A DNA stretch of 64,000 bases from Deltaproteobacteria bacterium (GTDB lineage: Bacteria; Desulfobacterota; GWC2-55-46), in NCBI GenBank assembly GCA_016234935.1, contig JACRNL010000005.1, positions 1-64,000 on the forward strand, in the 5' to 3' direction. How positions within the stretch are numbered: the stretch's first letter is position 1; each line of letters opens with the position of its first letter. A program made the position numbers and the translations under genes. The notes under the pieces are model-generated. The model searched no databases and was not told the DNA's origin. It saw only the letters and a list, made by a program, of their open reading frames with translations. Positions 3,999 to 15,822 of the stretch are shown here, in pieces.

Positions 3999-5219
3999 CT
4001 ATGTTTGCGATTTAATAAGTTTCAGTGAGCGATTTAGCTGCAACAATAGTATCGACTGAACCCCTTTGGGCGTTAAATAGAAATGATTGTCAACCTTTGC
4101 CAAAAATTGCAACTCGCAAGCATAATTTGAATATATATAAGTGGCGGTTTTGCGAGCTTTATCCGCTTTCCAAGTTTGCTCTTTACCGACTGATTTTACA
4201 AAATAATTTTGAATCGAATTAATTGCCACAGGGTATGTATTTTTTGCTAATATAAAAACCGCTTCAACAAGCGATAAAATCGTATATGTTACTGAAGAAA
4301 AGAAGGGGGTTTCTTTTGCAAAGTCCGATAACAATTCAATTTGTTTATCGTTAAACCTATCATCTATTATGCCATTGCCACTTCCTAAAAAAGTACTTCC
4401 AAAATCCGTCAAGAAAAATTTGTTTTTGAATTTAGTGGCAAGATTTAGTTGTGCCGCAATTGACAGGCGATTTCTTATAGTTTTGTGAGATTTACCTTCA
4501 ATTTTAGAAATTTCTTCAATTCCCCTGCCCTGAGACAAAAATTGCAATGTGGTTTTCAGAAGACCCAGTCTGACAACGCCATAATCACCTGATTGAATTT
4601 TTAAAAAATATGAGCGCTCCTTGAAGTTTTCATAATATTTAGAAAGTATAAATTCTGGCCTGTATGTTAGCAGTTGAATAAATTCTTTTTTACATCTTTC
4701 TACATCTCTATTTTTACAATCTGTAACTAAAATAATCTTTCTGATGTTAGAATTTATAAGTTTGTGCTGTTCTTGCAGTTCCCTAAGATTTTCAAAATAA
4801 CCGTTTATTTGATTAACTATGTCGCTGTAAAAACCAACCGCCTTCAACTCAATAAGAAATAATTCGTCTTTATAAAGATAGAGCAAGTCGAGCTTGCCGG
4901 ATTGCACGATTTTTTGTCTGGCAACAAGACTTAAATCCGCAGCATTTATATTAAGAAGTTCCGCTAAAATAGCTTTGTCACTACTCAGAATGTCTTCAAT
5001 TATTTTTTCTGAAATTAAGCTATTCTTCTTAAATACCTCATATTCGTCACTCGTTTTTGAATCACAATCACAACATACAAAATCTCCATACGGATAATTA
5101 AGCCTGTTAGCTTTCCGCGTTTTAATATCATTGCCGTCCGACACACGGTTTGCAAACAGGCCAGAACCAAAAGATACATCTTTTCCACAATGATTACATA
5201 TTTCTACCTCACGAGGCAT
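3999..5219 (-). CDS. putative type II restriction endonuclease (PD-(D/E)XK, N-terminal Cys motifs)
   Basis: A 406-residue protein in an AT-rich block unlike its neighbours. It begins with paired cysteines (CNHCGKDV near residue 8 and FVCCDCD near residue 48) that could bind zinc. Around residues 110-125 is GKLDLLYLYKDELFLIELKA, which fits the PD-(D/E)XK nuclease pattern of an Asp, a beta hairpin, then E-x-K. A central stretch (GIEEISKIEGKSHKTIRNRLS) looks like a helix-turn-helix. The start has a strong Shine-Dalgarno (GAGGAG) that lies inside the end of the upstream methyltransferase ORF, with an overlap of 11 bases. Its position beside a methyltransferase gene suggests the endonuclease of a restriction-modification pair. 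Specificity cannot be read from the sequence. A DUF91/NucS-type nuclease is an alternative. Confidence 0.65.
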   Translation of the reverse strand: MPREVEICNHCGKDVSFGSGLFANRVSDGNDIKTRKANRLNYPYGDFVCCDCDSKTSDEYEVFKKNSLISEKIIEDILSSDKAILAELLNINAADLSLVARQKIVQSGKLDLLYLYKDELFLIELKAVGFYSDIVNQINGYFENLRELQEQHKLINSNIRKIILVTDCKNRDVERCKKEFIQLLTYRPEFILSKYYENFKERSYFLKIQSGDYGVVRLGLLKTTLQFLSQGRGIEEISKIEGKSHKTIRNRLSIAAQLNLATKFKNKFFLTDFGSTFLGSGNGIIDDRFNDKQIELLSDFAKETPFFSSVTYTILSLVEAVFILAKNTYPVAINSIQNYFVKSVGKEQTWKADKARKTATYIYSNYACELQFLAKVDNHFYLTPKGVQSILLLQLNRSLKLIKSQT

Positions 5220-5628
5220 AATTAAATCTCCTCATCTTTTCCTGCAAATCAAAACCTGCCGCATTACGGTTAAGTTCCTGTGCGGCAACAAGGGTTGTCC
5301 CGCTTCCAACAAACGGATCTATAACAAGTTCGCCCTCATGGGTAAAAAGTTCTATTACCTTTTTGGCCAGAGTTATCGGAAAAGTCGCAGGATGAATACT
5401 CTTGTTGCGTATATCCCTGCTTTCATAAAAAAATTGCCACACGCCAATTTGACTCTTTAACCATTCTTTGGCGGTCATACAATTGATATGCGTAAGGGGA
5501 CATTTGCAGGTTCGTACAGAAGCTATATCCAACTTTGCGCCATAAGCCACAGTTGACTCTTTGACACTTTTTACTGATTTCTTTTTAACCTTTTTCTTTT
5601 CATCTATTGCATAAACTGCTTTTGCCAT
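5209..5628 (-). CDS. truncated DNA methyltransferase (motifs X and I only)
   Basis: This 139-residue ORF resembles the front part of a circularly permuted DNA amino-methyltransferase. It has a Lys-rich start, HPATFPITLAKKVIELFT at about residues 78-95, and the S-adenosylmethionine motif I, VIDPFVGSGTTLVAAQELNR, at about 101-120. The catalytic (D/S/N)PPY motif IV, which in this arrangement should follow motif I, is absent. Translation instead runs into the Shine-Dalgarno and start of the endonuclease gene and stops at FNYAS. The ORF is AT-rich and about half the length expected of a complete enzyme. It may be a deletion remnant, or one half of a split enzyme whose other half is elsewhere. As it stands it is unlikely to methylate DNA alone. 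Confidence 0.65.
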   Translation of the reverse strand: MAKAVYAIDEKKKVKKKSVKSVKESTVAYGAKLDIASVRTCKCPLTHINCMTAKEWLKSQIGVWQFFYESRDIRNKSIHPATFPITLAKKVIELFTHEGELVIDPFVGSGTTLVAAQELNRNAAGFDLQEKMRRFNYAS

Positions 5629-8213: not shown

Positions 8214-8978
8214 TCAATATTTTTTGGTTTGCAGAACATATGTTGCTTGCTGATATACTGAGGAGAAAAGATTTATTGCTTGTCCGTTCAAGCGTTTCTC
8301 TGCCGCTTTGAAATATTTCTCATCAATTTCAACGCCAATAAATCTTCTATCCAAGTTGAGTGCAGCAACGCCTGTTGAACCAACACCCATAAACGGGTCA
8401 AACACTATATCGCCTTCTTTTGAAGCAAGCTTTATACAATGTTCTAAAACCCTAACTGGCTTTTGTGTTGGATGGTTCGGATCTTTTAGGCGCTCAAGGC
8501 CCATACATATAGGCGTTTCAATAAAATTGTGCATCTCGTTTTGTTTTGTGAAGTTCCACGTATGGTTTTTATTCCACATACACACGATAAGTTCGCAACT
8601 ATTCAAGAAACCTGCTCGGCGAATTTTGGGCGCGGGGTTTGTCTTGTGCCACACCATAAATTGAAAAGTATCAAATTCTGAGTCAAAAGCTTCGTGCCAC
8701 TTGCCGAGCAGATTATAACTCGTGAACGCAAAAATATTCCCCGTTGGTTTTAATATTCGCTTAAATTCTTTTACCCAATCACGCGGCACAAACTCCTTTT
8801 TATCCCAATCCGCCAAATCGTTATTTAATTCTTTACGCCACGATAACTTGATATTTCCGGTTGAGTATGGGCTTAAATTATAGGGCGGGTCGGTCAAAAT
8901 CAAATCCGCCGAGCTTTCGGGAATTGTTTTGATGTGTTCATAGCTATCCGCGAGATGGATTTGATATTGATCTTTCAT
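8214..8978 (-). CDS. site-specific DNA methyltransferase, N6-adenine/N4-cytosine type
   Basis: A complete beta-type amino-methyltransferase of 254 residues. Catalytic motif IV, LTDPPYN, is at residues 28-34; HPTQKPVRVLEHCIKLA (motif X) is near 190 and the S-adenosylmethionine motif DPFMGVGSTGVAAL near 212, the order IV ... X-I of the beta group. The track starts it further upstream inside the neighbouring gene. I prefer the ATG of MKDQYQIHLADSYEH at 8978, four bases after the endonuclease stop, because the family fold starts there. With the upstream TdeIII-like endonuclease it forms an AT-rich pair, presumably protecting the recognition site. The target base cannot be told from these motifs. 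Confidence 0.88.
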   Translation of the reverse strand: MKDQYQIHLADSYEHIKTIPESSADLILTDPPYNLSPYSTGNIKLSWRKELNNDLADWDKKEFVPRDWVKEFKRILKPTGNIFAFTSYNLLGKWHEAFDSEFDTFQFMVWHKTNPAPKIRRAGFLNSCELIVCMWNKNHTWNFTKQNEMHNFIETPICMGLERLKDPNHPTQKPVRVLEHCIKLASKEGDIVFDPFMGVGSTGVAALNLDRRFIGVEIDEKYFKAAEKRLNGQAINLFSSVYQQATYVLQTKKY

Positions 8979-8982
8979 AATT

Positions 8983-9792
8983 TTAGCCAAGATATGTTTT
9001 CTTAATTGAGTCCAAAGCTTCTTTGATAAGATATGCGCTTGACCGATACGCTTCCAAAATCCACTCATAACCCCTATCGTTTTGACAGACAAAATTCCAG
9101 AAACTCCGCCCGATCAAGAGTTCATCGTCGACGAAAAATTGGCGGACGCGCTCTTGTCGCCATGGCTTATCTTCGCCAAAACGATTATATGCGGTAGCAA
9201 AAAAAATTTGAATTTTCTTATCTTTTGGCAGGGTGTTAGACAATATCGCAAACTGTTCCAAAATTGCTTCTTTTTCTGAACGCGCTTTCTTGTTATCCAA
9301 ATCTCCGCCAATTTTTAGCTCAATAAGATAATGGTTATTTGTTTCTTTATCAATTAAATAGTAATCGCTGTCGTGGCGTTTGATGACTTCATTTTTGCCG
9401 TTCTTGTGCGTTCGCAAAACTTGATAGTCGGACACTTCCGGTTTTTTCTCTCGACGCTTATATTTTTCCAAAAGCTCGGCAATAATCCTTGTTTGGTCAT
9501 TGCTCAGCGGCCCCTCAACATTTCGTTTTATTTCAAAAGAAAGTTTAGCGATGTTGATTGCCAAACTCTCAAGCATATTTCCAAGCGAGCTATCCAAGGA
9601 CCGAACGAGCGCGGCATAATATTGAACATCTTTTCCAAGCGCCTCGATAAAAACATTATGGACTTTCATGTTGATAATTCCTTCCAGATTATCAACTTCA
9701 CCTTCGTGTCGCGCTCTAAAGCCCTCAGCGTAGGATTCTACCGCCGTATGGACTAGTGCTTGTATTGCTTTTTTCTCTGTAAGATTTTTCAT
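8983..9792 (-). CDS. putative type II restriction endonuclease, TdeIII-like
   Basis: A 269-residue protein directly upstream of a methyltransferase gene (4-base gap), AT-rich like it. The segment YYAALVRSLDSSLGNMLES near residues 56-74, followed by INIAKLSFE, recalls the TdeIII/MjaII restriction endonuclease family (known GGNCC cutters). A PD-(D/E)XK-like core is visible as DSDYYLID then HYLIELKIGGDLDN at roughly 140-167. The gene context makes a restriction endonuclease very likely; the family name comes from memory of its motifs and is less certain, and the recognition site is not established. The start is the only sensible ATG of the frame. Confidence 0.72.
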   Translation of the reverse strand: MKNLTEKKAIQALVHTAVESYAEGFRARHEGEVDNLEGIINMKVHNVFIEALGKDVQYYAALVRSLDSSLGNMLESLAINIAKLSFEIKRNVEGPLSNDQTRIIAELLEKYKRREKKPEVSDYQVLRTHKNGKNEVIKRHDSDYYLIDKETNNHYLIELKIGGDLDNKKARSEKEAILEQFAILSNTLPKDKKIQIFFATAYNRFGEDKPWRQERVRQFFVDDELLIGRSFWNFVCQNDRGYEWILEAYRSSAYLIKEALDSIKKTYLG

Positions 9793-10081: not shown

Positions 10082-10110
10082 TTGACAACCTGCCTTGTTT
10101 TTTATATATT
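10082..10110 (+). promoter_or_regulatory. sigma-70-type promoter for the riboswitch / serA operon
   Basis: A perfect -35 box TTGACA at 10082-10087 and a -10 box TATATT at 10105-10110 are separated by exactly 17 bases. The expected transcription start lies just before the riboswitch aptamer. Confidence 0.75.
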
Positions 10111-10135
10111 AATATGCCGTATAAAAAACATATAT

Positions 10136-10222
10136 CAGGGCTGTCCGTGACTGACGGAATCAAGGTGGACACCACCGGGGAACGGATGGATTATATGATG
10201 GATTAGCCGGCCGTCTGGGCAT
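10136..10222 (+). ncRNA. ZTP (pfl) riboswitch aptamer
   Basis: The sequence reads tgtccgtgactgacgg, then a short ggtg...cacc hairpin running into caccggggaacgga, then after a linker gccggccgtctgggca. These match the conserved parts of the pfl motif: the GUGACUG segment, the CACCGGGGA segment, and the distal CCG-CUGGGC hairpin. GTCCGT pairs with ACGGAT to close P1. The class senses the folate-stress alarmone ZTP/ZMP and is known to control one-carbon, purine, and serine/glycine genes. Here it precedes an aminotransferase-serA operon, which fits serine as the one-carbon donor. The match was made by eye; a covariance-model search would settle it. Confidence 0.85.
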
Positions 10223-10270
10223 TTAGTGGTATAACTATACCATTCAATCAACGCTCAGCCGGTTTTTTTT
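10206..10270 (+). terminator. riboswitch-controlled intrinsic terminator
   Basis: GCTCAGCCGG at 10253-10262, followed by eight Ts, can pair with CCGGC and TGGGC at 10207-10220, which form the distal hairpin of the aptamer. An inner hairpin TGGTAT...ATACCA extends the helix. The terminator and the ligand-bound aptamer are therefore mutually exclusive, the layout of an ON switch in which ZTP allows read-through. Confidence 0.78.
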
Positions 10271-10277
10271 ATTTCCC

Positions 10278-10396
10278 CTACCTTTCTTGAAAGAAAGGTA
10301 GGCCCAAAGAACTTTACTTCCTGCTACGCAGGTTCGTGCTTTTGCAATCTTTTGAATTAAAGTTCTTTGGCTCACCTTTCTTTCAAGAAAGGTGAG
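10278..10396. repeat. family B inverted-repeat element (complete copy)
   Basis: About 119 bases with long terminal inverted repeats: ctacctttcttgaaagaaag at the left and its near complement at the right, each followed inward by ccaaagaacttta. Each end is itself a hairpin. There is no coding content. It sits between the riboswitch terminator and the aminotransferase start, so it is part of the mRNA leader. Other ends of the family are at 1743, 13324, 25608 and 25771. Confidence 0.8.
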
Positions 10397-10433
10397 TGCC
10401 GGGCAAAACACTAACGTAAGGAGAGTTTATATC

Positions 10434-11579
10434 ATGAAAAAAAGGTATCTCTTGGCGCCGGGGCCGACACCCGTGCCGGAAAGCGCGCTGCTCGCGATGG
10501 CGGCGCCCGTAATCCACCACAGGACGCCTCAGTTCTCCGAGATTTTCAAAGAGACCGCCGAGCTCCTTAAATACGTCTTTCAGACAAAGCAGGACGTCCT
10601 TATTCTCGCGGCGTCCGGAACCGGCGCGATGGAAGGCTCCATAACAAACCTCTTTTCCCCGGGAGACGAAGTAATCGTCGTAAACGGCGGAAAGTTCGGC
10701 GAGCGGTGGGCAAAGATATCCGAGGCCTACGGTTTAAAGGTCAACATGATAACGGTTGAATGGGGAAAGGCCGTTGACCCTGCGGCCGTTAAAAAGATAC
10801 TTGACGAAAAGCCCGGAATAAAAGCCGTGATGGTGCAGGCCAGCGAGACCTCCACCTGCGCCGCGCACCCGGTTAAGGAGCTTGCCGCCCTTACGAAGGA
10901 CAGGGACTGCCTCCTTATAGTAGACGGCATCACGGCGGTCGGCGTATTCGACCTGCCGATGGACGCATGGGGAATAGACGTCCTTGTCTCAGGCTCACAG
11001 AAGGCCTTCATGCTCCCTCCGGGCCTGGCCTTTGCGGCGCTGAGCGAAAAGGCGTGGAAGTTCCAGGAGACCGCAAAGTGCCCTCGCTTTTACTTTGACT
11101 TCAAAAAAGAACGCAAAAACCTCAAGGACAACACCACGGCCTACACCCCGGCGGTCTCCCTCATCATCGGCCTCGGCGAGGCCCTGAAGATGATAAAGGA
11201 AGAGGGCCTTCAGAACGTATTTGCAAGGCACGACAGGCTTGCGCGCTCCGTAAAGGCCGCCGCAAAGGCGATGAATCTGAAACTCCTCGCCCCTGACGCC
11301 CCTTCCAACGCCGCAACGGGCGTCTATGTGCCGGAAGGCGTTGACGGCGGGAAGCTCGTAAAATACCTGCGCGACGAGATGGGCGTCACCATGGCCGGAG
11401 GGCAGGACCACCTGAAGGGCAAGATTTTAAGGATTGCGCACCTGGGCTACGTGGACACTTTTGACATAATAGTCGCCATAGCGTCCATTGAAATGGCGCT
11501 AACAAAGCTCGGCCATAAGGCCGAACTCGGCAAGGGCGTTGCCGCGGCGCAGCAAATTCTCCTGGAAGGATATAAATAA
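10434..11579 (+). CDS. class V aminotransferase (alanine/serine-glyoxylate or phosphoserine type)
   Basis: A PLP-dependent enzyme of 381 residues. The start MKKRYLLAPGPTPVPESALLA with a good Shine-Dalgarno (AAGGAG, 10 bases upstream) is preferred over the track start 42 bases earlier, which lies in the repeat. The PLP lysine is in SGSQKAFMLPPGLA near residue 189, and VDGITAVGVFDLPMDAWGID carries the cofactor-binding Asp. It overlaps the serA start by one base (TAATG). Annotated relatives are alanine-glyoxylate or serine-pyruvate aminotransferases. Because it is translationally coupled to serA behind a ZTP riboswitch and no classic serC is nearby, I infer it may act as the phosphoserine aminotransferase of serine synthesis. 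Confidence 0.88.
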   Translation: MKKRYLLAPGPTPVPESALLAMAAPVIHHRTPQFSEIFKETAELLKYVFQTKQDVLILAASGTGAMEGSITNLFSPGDEVIVVNGGKFGERWAKISEAYGLKVNMITVEWGKAVDPAAVKKILDEKPGIKAVMVQASETSTCAAHPVKELAALTKDRDCLLIVDGITAVGVFDLPMDAWGIDVLVSGSQKAFMLPPGLAFAALSEKAWKFQETAKCPRFYFDFKKERKNLKDNTTAYTPAVSLIIGLGEALKMIKEEGLQNVFARHDRLARSVKAAAKAMNLKLLAPDAPSNAATGVYVPEGVDGGKLVKYLRDEMGVTMAGGQDHLKGKILRIAHLGYVDTFDIIVAIASIEMALTKLGHKAELGKGVAAAQQILLEGYK

Positions 11580-13162
11580 TGAAGATACTTATCAGCGACA
11601 GCATGTCCGCGAAGGCCGTGGAGATATTAAAAAGCAAGCCCGGCCTTGACTGCGAGGTATCAACCGGCCTTAAGCCGGATGAACTGAAGATCAAGATAAA
11701 AGATTTCCACGCCCTCGTGGTCAGAAGCTCGACAAAGGTAACCGCCGACATAATGGAAGCCGCCGAGAACCTGAAGGTCATAGGCAGGGCAGGCACGGGC
11801 GTGGACAACGTGGACGTGGCAGCCGCCACGAAAAAGGGCATCGTCGTCATGAACACGCCCGGCGGCAACACAATCACCACGGCGGAGCACGCCATAGCCA
11901 TGATGGTCGCTCTGGCGCGCAAGATTCCTCAGGCCACCGCCTCCATGAAACGCGGCGAGTGGGAAAAAAAGAAGTTTGAAGGCACGGAATTGACCGGAAA
12001 GACCCTCGGCATACTCGGCGTTGGCAACATCGGCAGCGTCGTAGCCTCACGGGCGCAGGGCCTGCGCATGAACGTCATCGCATACGACCCCTTCATCTCC
12101 TTGGATGCCGCCGACAAGATGGGCATCGCCCTCGTCAACCTGGACGATCTTTTCGCCAAGAGCGATTTTCTCTCCATCCACGTGCCTTTGATGAACGAGA
12201 CAAAAAACCTTGTCAACGCAGAGGCCTTTAAGAAGATGAAAAAGGGCGTAAAACTCATAAACTGCGCGCGCGGCGGCATCGTCAACGAGAAAGACCTTGC
12301 CGGGGCCATAACGGCCAAGATCGTCTCAGGCGCGGCCCTTGACGTGTTCGAAAAAGAGCCGCCTCCGGCGGATAACCCCCTTCTTGCGATGGACGAGGTC
12401 ATCCTCACCCCGCATCTTGGCGCGTCAACGCACGAGGCGCAGGAGTCGGTGGCCGTCGCCATAGCGGAGCAGATAGCGGACTATCTCTCCACCGGCACCA
12501 TCAGGAACGCCGTCAATGTCCCGTCCATACCCGCGGAGCTTCTGACCGCCCTGGGCCCGTACATCAGCCTCGGAGAGAAGCTCGGCAGCTTCCAGGGGCA
12601 AATACTGAAAGACGCGGTGGAGGAAATCACCGTTGAATACAGCGGCGACGTCGTCAACTACGACGTGGCTCCGATTACCATAGCCTGCATCAAGGGGCTT
12701 CTCGACCGGATGCTCGACCTTTACGTAAACTTCGTCAACGCCCCGTTCGTAGCAAAAGAAAGAGGCATAAAGGTCATCGAGATAAAAAGCTCAAGGACCA
12801 CGGACTTTGCAAGCTCCGTCACCATCAAGGTGAAGACAAAGACGGAAGAAAACGTCATCGAGGGCGCGCTCTTCGGTAAAAAAGAGGCCCGCATCGTAAG
12901 GATAGGCAAGTTCTTCCTCGACGCCGTCCCCGAAGGCAACCTCCTCCTCCTGCATAACGAAGACAAGCCCGGCGTCATCGGAAACGTAGGCACGCTCCTT
13001 GGCGCGAGCAACGTAAACATCGCAAGGCTCCACCTCGGCAGACAGACCGTCGGCGGCGAGGCCGTCTCCGTATGGAGCATTGACACCCCGCCTTCAAAGG
13101 GGCTTATTGAAAAGATACTCAAGCTCCCGCACATGATCTCCGCAAAGGCAGTAGAACTCTAA
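11579..13162 (+). CDS. serA: D-3-phosphoglycerate dehydrogenase, long ACT-domain form
   Basis: Oxidises 3-phosphoglycerate to 3-phosphohydroxypyruvate, the first committed step of serine synthesis. The 527 residues match the long type 1 form. The NAD-binding motif GILGVGNIGSVVASRAQGL is near residue 145, the catalytic Arg in NCARGGIVNEKDL near 236, and the catalytic His in LTPHLGASTHEAQE near 279. Then come an allosteric substrate-binding domain and a C-terminal ACT domain (LLLLHNEDKPGVIGNVGTLL), the usual site of serine feedback. It is coupled to the preceding aminotransferase by a one-base overlap and is presumably under the same ZTP riboswitch. Confidence 0.97.
   Translation: MKILISDSMSAKAVEILKSKPGLDCEVSTGLKPDELKIKIKDFHALVVRSSTKVTADIMEAAENLKVIGRAGTGVDNVDVAAATKKGIVVMNTPGGNTITTAEHAIAMMVALARKIPQATASMKRGEWEKKKFEGTELTGKTLGILGVGNIGSVVASRAQGLRMNVIAYDPFISLDAADKMGIALVNLDDLFAKSDFLSIHVPLMNETKNLVNAEAFKKMKKGVKLINCARGGIVNEKDLAGAITAKIVSGAALDVFEKEPPPADNPLLAMDEVILTPHLGASTHEAQESVAVAIAEQIADYLSTGTIRNAVNVPSIPAELLTALGPYISLGEKLGSFQGQILKDAVEEITVEYSGDVVNYDVAPITIACIKGLLDRMLDLYVNFVNAPFVAKERGIKVIEIKSSRTTDFASSVTIKVKTKTEENVIEGALFGKKEARIVRIGKFFLDAVPEGNLLLLHNEDKPGVIGNVGTLLGASNVNIARLHLGRQTVGGEAVSVWSIDTPPSKGLIEKILKLPHMISAKAVEL

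Positions 13163-13474: not shown

Positions 13475-15822
<2,348 letters not shown>

Follow-up and report, generated by a model that had tools for sequence, protein, structure and literature searches.

The leader upstream of a class V aminotransferase gene and serA in a Deltaproteobacteria genome very probably contains a ZMP/ZTP-sensing transcriptional ON riboswitch that drives this gene pair. Throughout the uncultured bacterial class to which the genome belongs, which we take to be GWC2-55-46 of the Desulfobacterota in GTDB, a class treated in PMC13386864, the same switch would govern operons of carbon and redox metabolism, with the alarmone apparently mobilising carbon and reducing power in general. 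We infer the ligand, the switching and the metabolic effect as the best explanation of the sequence, structure, conservation and target genes described below. The window referred to throughout is the whole 64,000-nucleotide stretch of DNA that was analysed; its features, and the other aptamers of the genome, are listed in Table 1.

Table 1. Positions of the riboswitch features, downstream genes and further aptamers (window positions unless a contig is named).
Feature	Position	Strand	Evidence or context
Sigma-70-type promoter, TTGACA-17-TATATT	10082-10110	+	11/12 consensus positions
ZMP/ZTP riboswitch aptamer RF01750 (P1, P2, P3, pseudoknot); aptamer 1 of the genome	10137-10227	+	Rfam and clade model scores, P1 covariation over 84 sequences; before aminotransferase-serA
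Intrinsic terminator (expression platform), overlapping P3 and the pseudoknot strand	10205-10270	+	Folding, class comparison
Dispersed palindromic repeat copy, in the leader after the terminator and ahead of the gene	10272-10402	.	Genome repeat search
Class V (AGXT-like) aminotransferase, proposed phosphoserine aminotransferase	10434-11579	+	Profile and structure comparison
serA, D-3-phosphoglycerate dehydrogenase	11579-13162	+	TIGR01327, 665 bits
hisZ, conserved neighbour, transcript membership uncertain	13475-14482	+	18 class loci
purA, conserved neighbour, transcript membership uncertain	14530-15822	+	17 class loci
Aptamer L005	C8:17059-17145		Before rnfCDGEAB; RnfC TIGR01945, 510 bits
Aptamer L006	C7:47180-47264		Before monomeric NADP-isocitrate dehydrogenase (TIGR00178, 1345 bits) and an ATP-citrate-lyase/citryl-CoA-synthetase-like pair
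Aptamer L007	C5:277431-277504, full aptamer to about 277640		Before inorganic pyrophosphatase-pntA-pntB (ppa-pntAB, transhydrogenase)

The riboswitch leader and its downstream genes

A scan of the entire window with Rfam covariance models returned two matches, one of them to the ZMP/ZTP riboswitch family RF01750. The match covers the full length of the model (positions 1 to 86) and scores 57.5 bits against a gathering threshold of 39, with an E-value of 1e-6 in the window and 8.2e-9 in a search of the whole genome; the clade covariance model R1 gives the same aptamer 77.7 bits. A reading made from the sequence alone had called a pfl-type aptamer here and named the Rfam pfl (ZTP) model as its check, and the score above gathering bears this assignment out. 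The pseudoknot pairs positions 10153-10156 with 10212-10215 (G-C, A-U, C-G and G-C). The order of promoter, aptamer, terminator, aminotransferase and serA also agrees with that reading, as does the presence of the promoter; it had been described as perfect and is instead near-consensus.

The terminator hairpin spans positions 10205-10262. The P3/pseudoknot strand forms its 5' side; the 3' side, GCTCAGCCGG (10253-10262), leads into a run of eight T residues (10263-10270). The region 10200-10275 folds with a free energy of -23.9 kcal/mol (z -4.2), and none of 200 shuffled sequences was equally stable. Because P3 and the pseudoknot strand are used by both structures, the terminator would compete with the aptamer, in line with the competition with the distal aptamer hairpin proposed earlier. 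A scan of the window for simple-hairpin terminators was negative, overlooking this element because its inner hairpin sits in the loop; folding and comparison with relatives point to a longer, branched terminator. The window copy reads CAGCCGG, whereas the usual form among relatives is CAGGCGG or CAGACGG; the result is a single U-C mismatch, or a bulge in the fold as predicted. The leader as a whole is predicted to be a transcriptional ON switch for the aminotransferase and serA.

The aminotransferase gene starts with an ATG behind an AAGGAG-type ribosome-binding site. Its best NCBIfam model, the BhcA aspartate-glyoxylate aminotransferase (NF045640), scores 346.8 bits against a cut-off of 650, and serine-glyoxylate and alanine-glyoxylate aminotransferases come closest among solved structures. 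Against the SerC model serC_1 (TIGR01364) it reaches 22.6 bits, far under the curated cut-off of 443.6. Because it is nevertheless the sole serC_1 match in the genome, it is the strongest candidate for the phosphoserine aminotransferase that otherwise seems to be missing, and its place beside serA suggests that it may do the SerC job. The order serA, hisZ, purA is kept within the family, which upholds the earlier remark on purA and hisZ as neighbours; their co-transcription with serA is uncertain because 313 bp, including a further copy of a dispersed repeat (C9:13310-13369), intervene.

This palindromic repeat, with arms CCTTTCTTTCAAGAAAGG, gave 78 matches to the element or its arms in the genome, corresponding to roughly 40 sites, since a palindromic site is often matched on both strands. 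The copy within the riboswitch leader could add termination or stability signals. Upstream, on the minus strand, an adenine-specific DNA methyltransferase adjoins a protein with weak similarity to restriction enzymes of the HinfI type (8214-9792), the two being a probable type II restriction-modification pair. A 139-aa open reading frame (5209-5628, minus strand) has a DNA-methyltransferase-like motif (DPFVGSGTTLVAAQ) at its end and is apparently a truncated methylase beside a 406-aa open reading frame (3999-5219).

Conservation of the RNA across the class

We searched 59 relatives and then 61 genomes of the class (at least 70% complete), fetched and oriented each aptamer locus, and clustered the downstream proteins. 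The aptamer was found in 45 of the 61 class genomes, on the same strand as, and upstream of, the same few operons. In an alignment of the 84 distinct class aptamers, 87% of pairs are standard and the covariation score is 0.222, compared with 0.141 in shuffled alignments (0 of 500). P1 shows changes on both sides in eight of its ten pairs and 98.8% of P2 cells are paired, while P3 keeps its three inner pairs in all sequences and leaves its two outer pairs mostly unformed. At least seven of nine pairs can form between CCGTCTGGG and the bases before a T run in 75 of 95 class loci (0.5 expected in shuffles), and 80 class aptamers have a promoter-like pair of the form TTGA..-TA...T no more than 110 nt upstream (3.2 expected in shuffles). 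Whatever the type of target, the core, terminator and promoter are conserved. In several class aptamers (G003:C28, G003:C88, G057:C140, G018:C112 and L225) J1/2 or the linker preceding P3 carries long additional hairpins, with core and terminator kept.

The pseudoknot between J1/2 and the P3 loop, beside the ligand pocket, is GACG/CGUC in all 84 class aptamers. The Rfam consensus is GGCG/CGCC, as are six other aptamers of the phylum (L193, L194, L196, L199, L200 and L207), and the A-U pair of the class in place of G-C is a compensated change. It also occurs outside the class at two fhs loci of family f55 (L195 and L197). The other strongly conserved Rfam positions are unchanged in the class, including the P3-loop U described as contacting ZMP (PMC7337938).

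Target operons in the genome, the class and the phylum

The whole-genome Rfam search found exactly four ZTP aptamers in this genome, and the clade model added none, returning the same four and a detached P3 half of the C5 copy. The link to aminotransferase-serA made in the sequence-only reading stands, and its single-operon view has to be widened by three further operons, none of them of one-carbon genes. The C5 copy scores 33.7 bits with Rfam; P3, the GACCGTCTGGGC strand and the terminator are intact, and the score is low only because a long linker with a hairpin parts P1 from P3. The small subunit of the citrate-lyase-like pair on C7 matches PF16114 and PF08442, and its nearest solved relative is citryl-CoA synthetase (6hxq). 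The large subunit (at L006 from about 9880, and at the G051:C4 and G040:C21 loci) is about 900 aa long, with N-terminal SucD-like domains and a C-terminal part without a Pfam match; it is possibly an unusual form of ATP-citrate lyase.

Over both searches the class yielded 101 aptamers. Isocitrate dehydrogenase (icd) and/or the citrate-lyase pair (acl) follow 36, rnf follows 30 and aminotransferase-serA 20; the rest precede pnt/ppa (5), a Na+/H+ antiporter (5), sucCD-kor (3, called with NCBIfam), kup (1) or a contig end (1). In none of the 101 loci was purH, fhs, folD or glyA found behind the aptamer. Five aptamers added by the last search (L223-L227), fetched once the target set had been fixed and used as a held-out test, precede icd-acl, pntAB, sucCD, icd and rnf, five known targets out of five. 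The icd-acl aptamers occur in six families of the class, and all 20 aminotransferase-serA loci fall in one. Several close relatives in the GTDB set have the aminotransferase with no aptamer detected upstream (for example L133, L139 and L144, and L143 and others of lower G+C). The restriction to one family and these relatives both count against the proposed switch. The named GTDB relatives are 'Deltaproteobacteria' metagenome-assembled genomes from groundwater and sediment, among them GWA2_55_10, GWB2_55_19, UBA5799 and H5_GWC. The switch in G051 is followed by a dimeric isocitrate dehydrogenase (407 aa) that is unrelated to the monomeric enzyme and lies before the same citrate-lyase pair, a replacement which argues that regulation follows function. 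The antiporter (PF00999) is a target only in genus g10 (G009, G017, G023, G026 and G028), and in loci of this genus (for example L054, L089, L097, L102 and L104) P2 covaries to GATGG/CCATC.

Of the genomes outside the class among the 297 searched for the phylum, only seven carry the aptamer. By inspection of translations, its targets there are fhs (two genomes), glyA (three loci in two genomes), an aminotransferase resembling that of the window (L199), serA (L200) and one BenE-like transporter. Outside the class the switch thus typically precedes one-carbon and serine genes, and inside it genes of central carbon and redox metabolism. The L199 and L200 aptamers, from other families, share the target gene type of the window; unlike it, they have the canonical pseudoknot, reach only 33.4 and 24.4 bits with the clade model and are present as one copy per genome, compared with four here.

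Metabolic logic and alternative readings

ZTP riboswitches are known as switches of one-carbon and purine metabolism. In the mechanism that we propose, modelled on the T. carboxydivorans ZMP switch (PMC7337938), the P3/pseudoknot strand would pair with the 3' terminator strand when ligand is absent and transcription would stop at the T run; bound ZMP or ZTP would hold the pseudoknot and P3, the terminator would fail and RNA polymerase would read through. ZMP would accumulate when 10-formyl-THF is too low for PurH, and the additional serine would restore one-carbon units via serine hydroxymethyltransferase. The earlier reading, a ZTP switch on serine synthesis to feed one-carbon metabolism, is supported by the covariance model, the architecture, the 20 class loci of the same gene order and the metabolic logic. 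The genome encodes PurH, the user of ZMP. Formate-THF ligase was not found in a search of this genome, and serine is therefore likely to be its main one-carbon source. As a class-wide cause of the serA link this absence is weak, the ligase gene being over the cut-off in 13 of 30 genomes searched, with no aptamer before it.

The window shares with the pfl RNA motif its aptamer, pseudoknot topology and the ON-switch architecture with an overlapping terminator (PMC2864571, PMC7337938). The known gene associations of the ZTP class are purH, fhs, pfl, glyA and folD (PMC2864571), in contrast to icd-acl, rnf, serA, pntAB and sucCD-kor here. The serA gene feeds one-carbon metabolism, but purH, fhs, folD and glyA are absent from the targets of all 101 class loci; the usual link to purine and 10-formyl-THF genes is an association and not a defining feature. 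In Bacillus and Oceanobacillus, tandem ZTP/glycine riboswitches lie ahead of the opening gene of the serine pathway (PMC9481103), and there too a ZTP ON switch precedes the enzyme which takes 3-phosphoglycerate into serine synthesis; the same logic is predicted here, with a single aptamer (the Rfam scan found no glycine aptamer in the window), the aminotransferase first and a different lineage. Taken alone, the window locus is thus an ordinary ZTP riboswitch, well supported and with a target that makes sense, and it belongs to a known kind because a ZTP aptamer before serA has already been reported in Bacillus. The unexpected part is the class-wide regulon, outside the window. A search limited to the open-access literature found no paper that combines 'ZTP riboswitch' with 'isocitrate dehydrogenase'.

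The same switch would also govern isocitrate dehydrogenase/ATP-citrate-lyase-like genes, Rnf and transhydrogenase in the class; one family would add succinyl-CoA synthetase and 2-oxoglutarate:ferredoxin oxidoreductase. From these targets we infer that ZMP/ZTP may have been co-opted as a broader anabolic and redox signal, seeming to summon carbon and reducing power generally. A stricter version has, in our judgement, even chances: the alarmone would signal in a general way for carbon fixation and reducing power, turning on several neighbouring reductive TCA steps (the two enzymes of the one family, and isocitrate dehydrogenase with ATP-citrate lyase class-wide, the reductive direction being presumed), Rnf, transhydrogenase and serine synthesis, with folate and purine genes gone from the regulon. 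Alternatively, ZTP could report an over-reduced NADP(H) pool and not a shortage of carbon: high NADPH would block the oxidation of methylene-THF to 10-formyl-THF, ZMP would rise, and reductive isocitrate dehydrogenase, transhydrogenase, Rnf and a Na+/H+ antiporter would dispose of the reductant. The NADP-dependent monomeric isocitrate dehydrogenase, Pnt and RnfC among the targets, and the antiporter in five genomes of one genus, are consistent with this; serA/aminotransferase and sucCD-kor fit it less directly, the flux direction through isocitrate dehydrogenase and citrate lyase is presumed, and an ordinary citrate synthase is also encoded in the genome. We regard it as unlikely, and for the targets other than serA we prefer the reading in which the alarmone asks for carbon and reducing power generally. 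The genome also encodes two 2-oxoacid:ferredoxin oxidoreductase alpha subunits.

It is quite improbable, in our view, that the clade aptamer keeps the pfl fold and senses another central carbon or redox metabolite. Such a change would explain the non-folate targets, and the missing canonical folate and purine genes could point to it, as could the base-pair change fixed in the clade beside the pocket. The compensated pair is, however, the only fixed change among the strongly conserved consensus positions, the same A-U pseudoknot stands ahead of fhs in another family of the phylum (two genomes), and serA is a plausible ZTP target. A ligand change through pocket substitutions was rejected as a first choice, as only this one pair departs from the consensus. 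Conservation at every target type, the spread of icd-acl aptamers over six families and the exchange of enzymes in G051 make it very improbable indeed that only serA-type targets are functional and that the rnf, icd and pnt aptamers are relics or hitch-hiking duplicates, a reading to which some divergent copies, such as the low-scoring pnt aptamer with its long linker, lend themselves. Should the preferred reading, of a signal that summons carbon and reducing power generally, be true, there would be a whole class with ZTP switches on TCA-cycle, Rnf and transhydrogenase operons, and a purine intermediate would become a bacterial counterpart of a central anabolic signal. Some 100 leader RNAs provide a directly testable set, and the compensated pseudoknot pair fixed in the class is a natural variant with which tuning could be studied.
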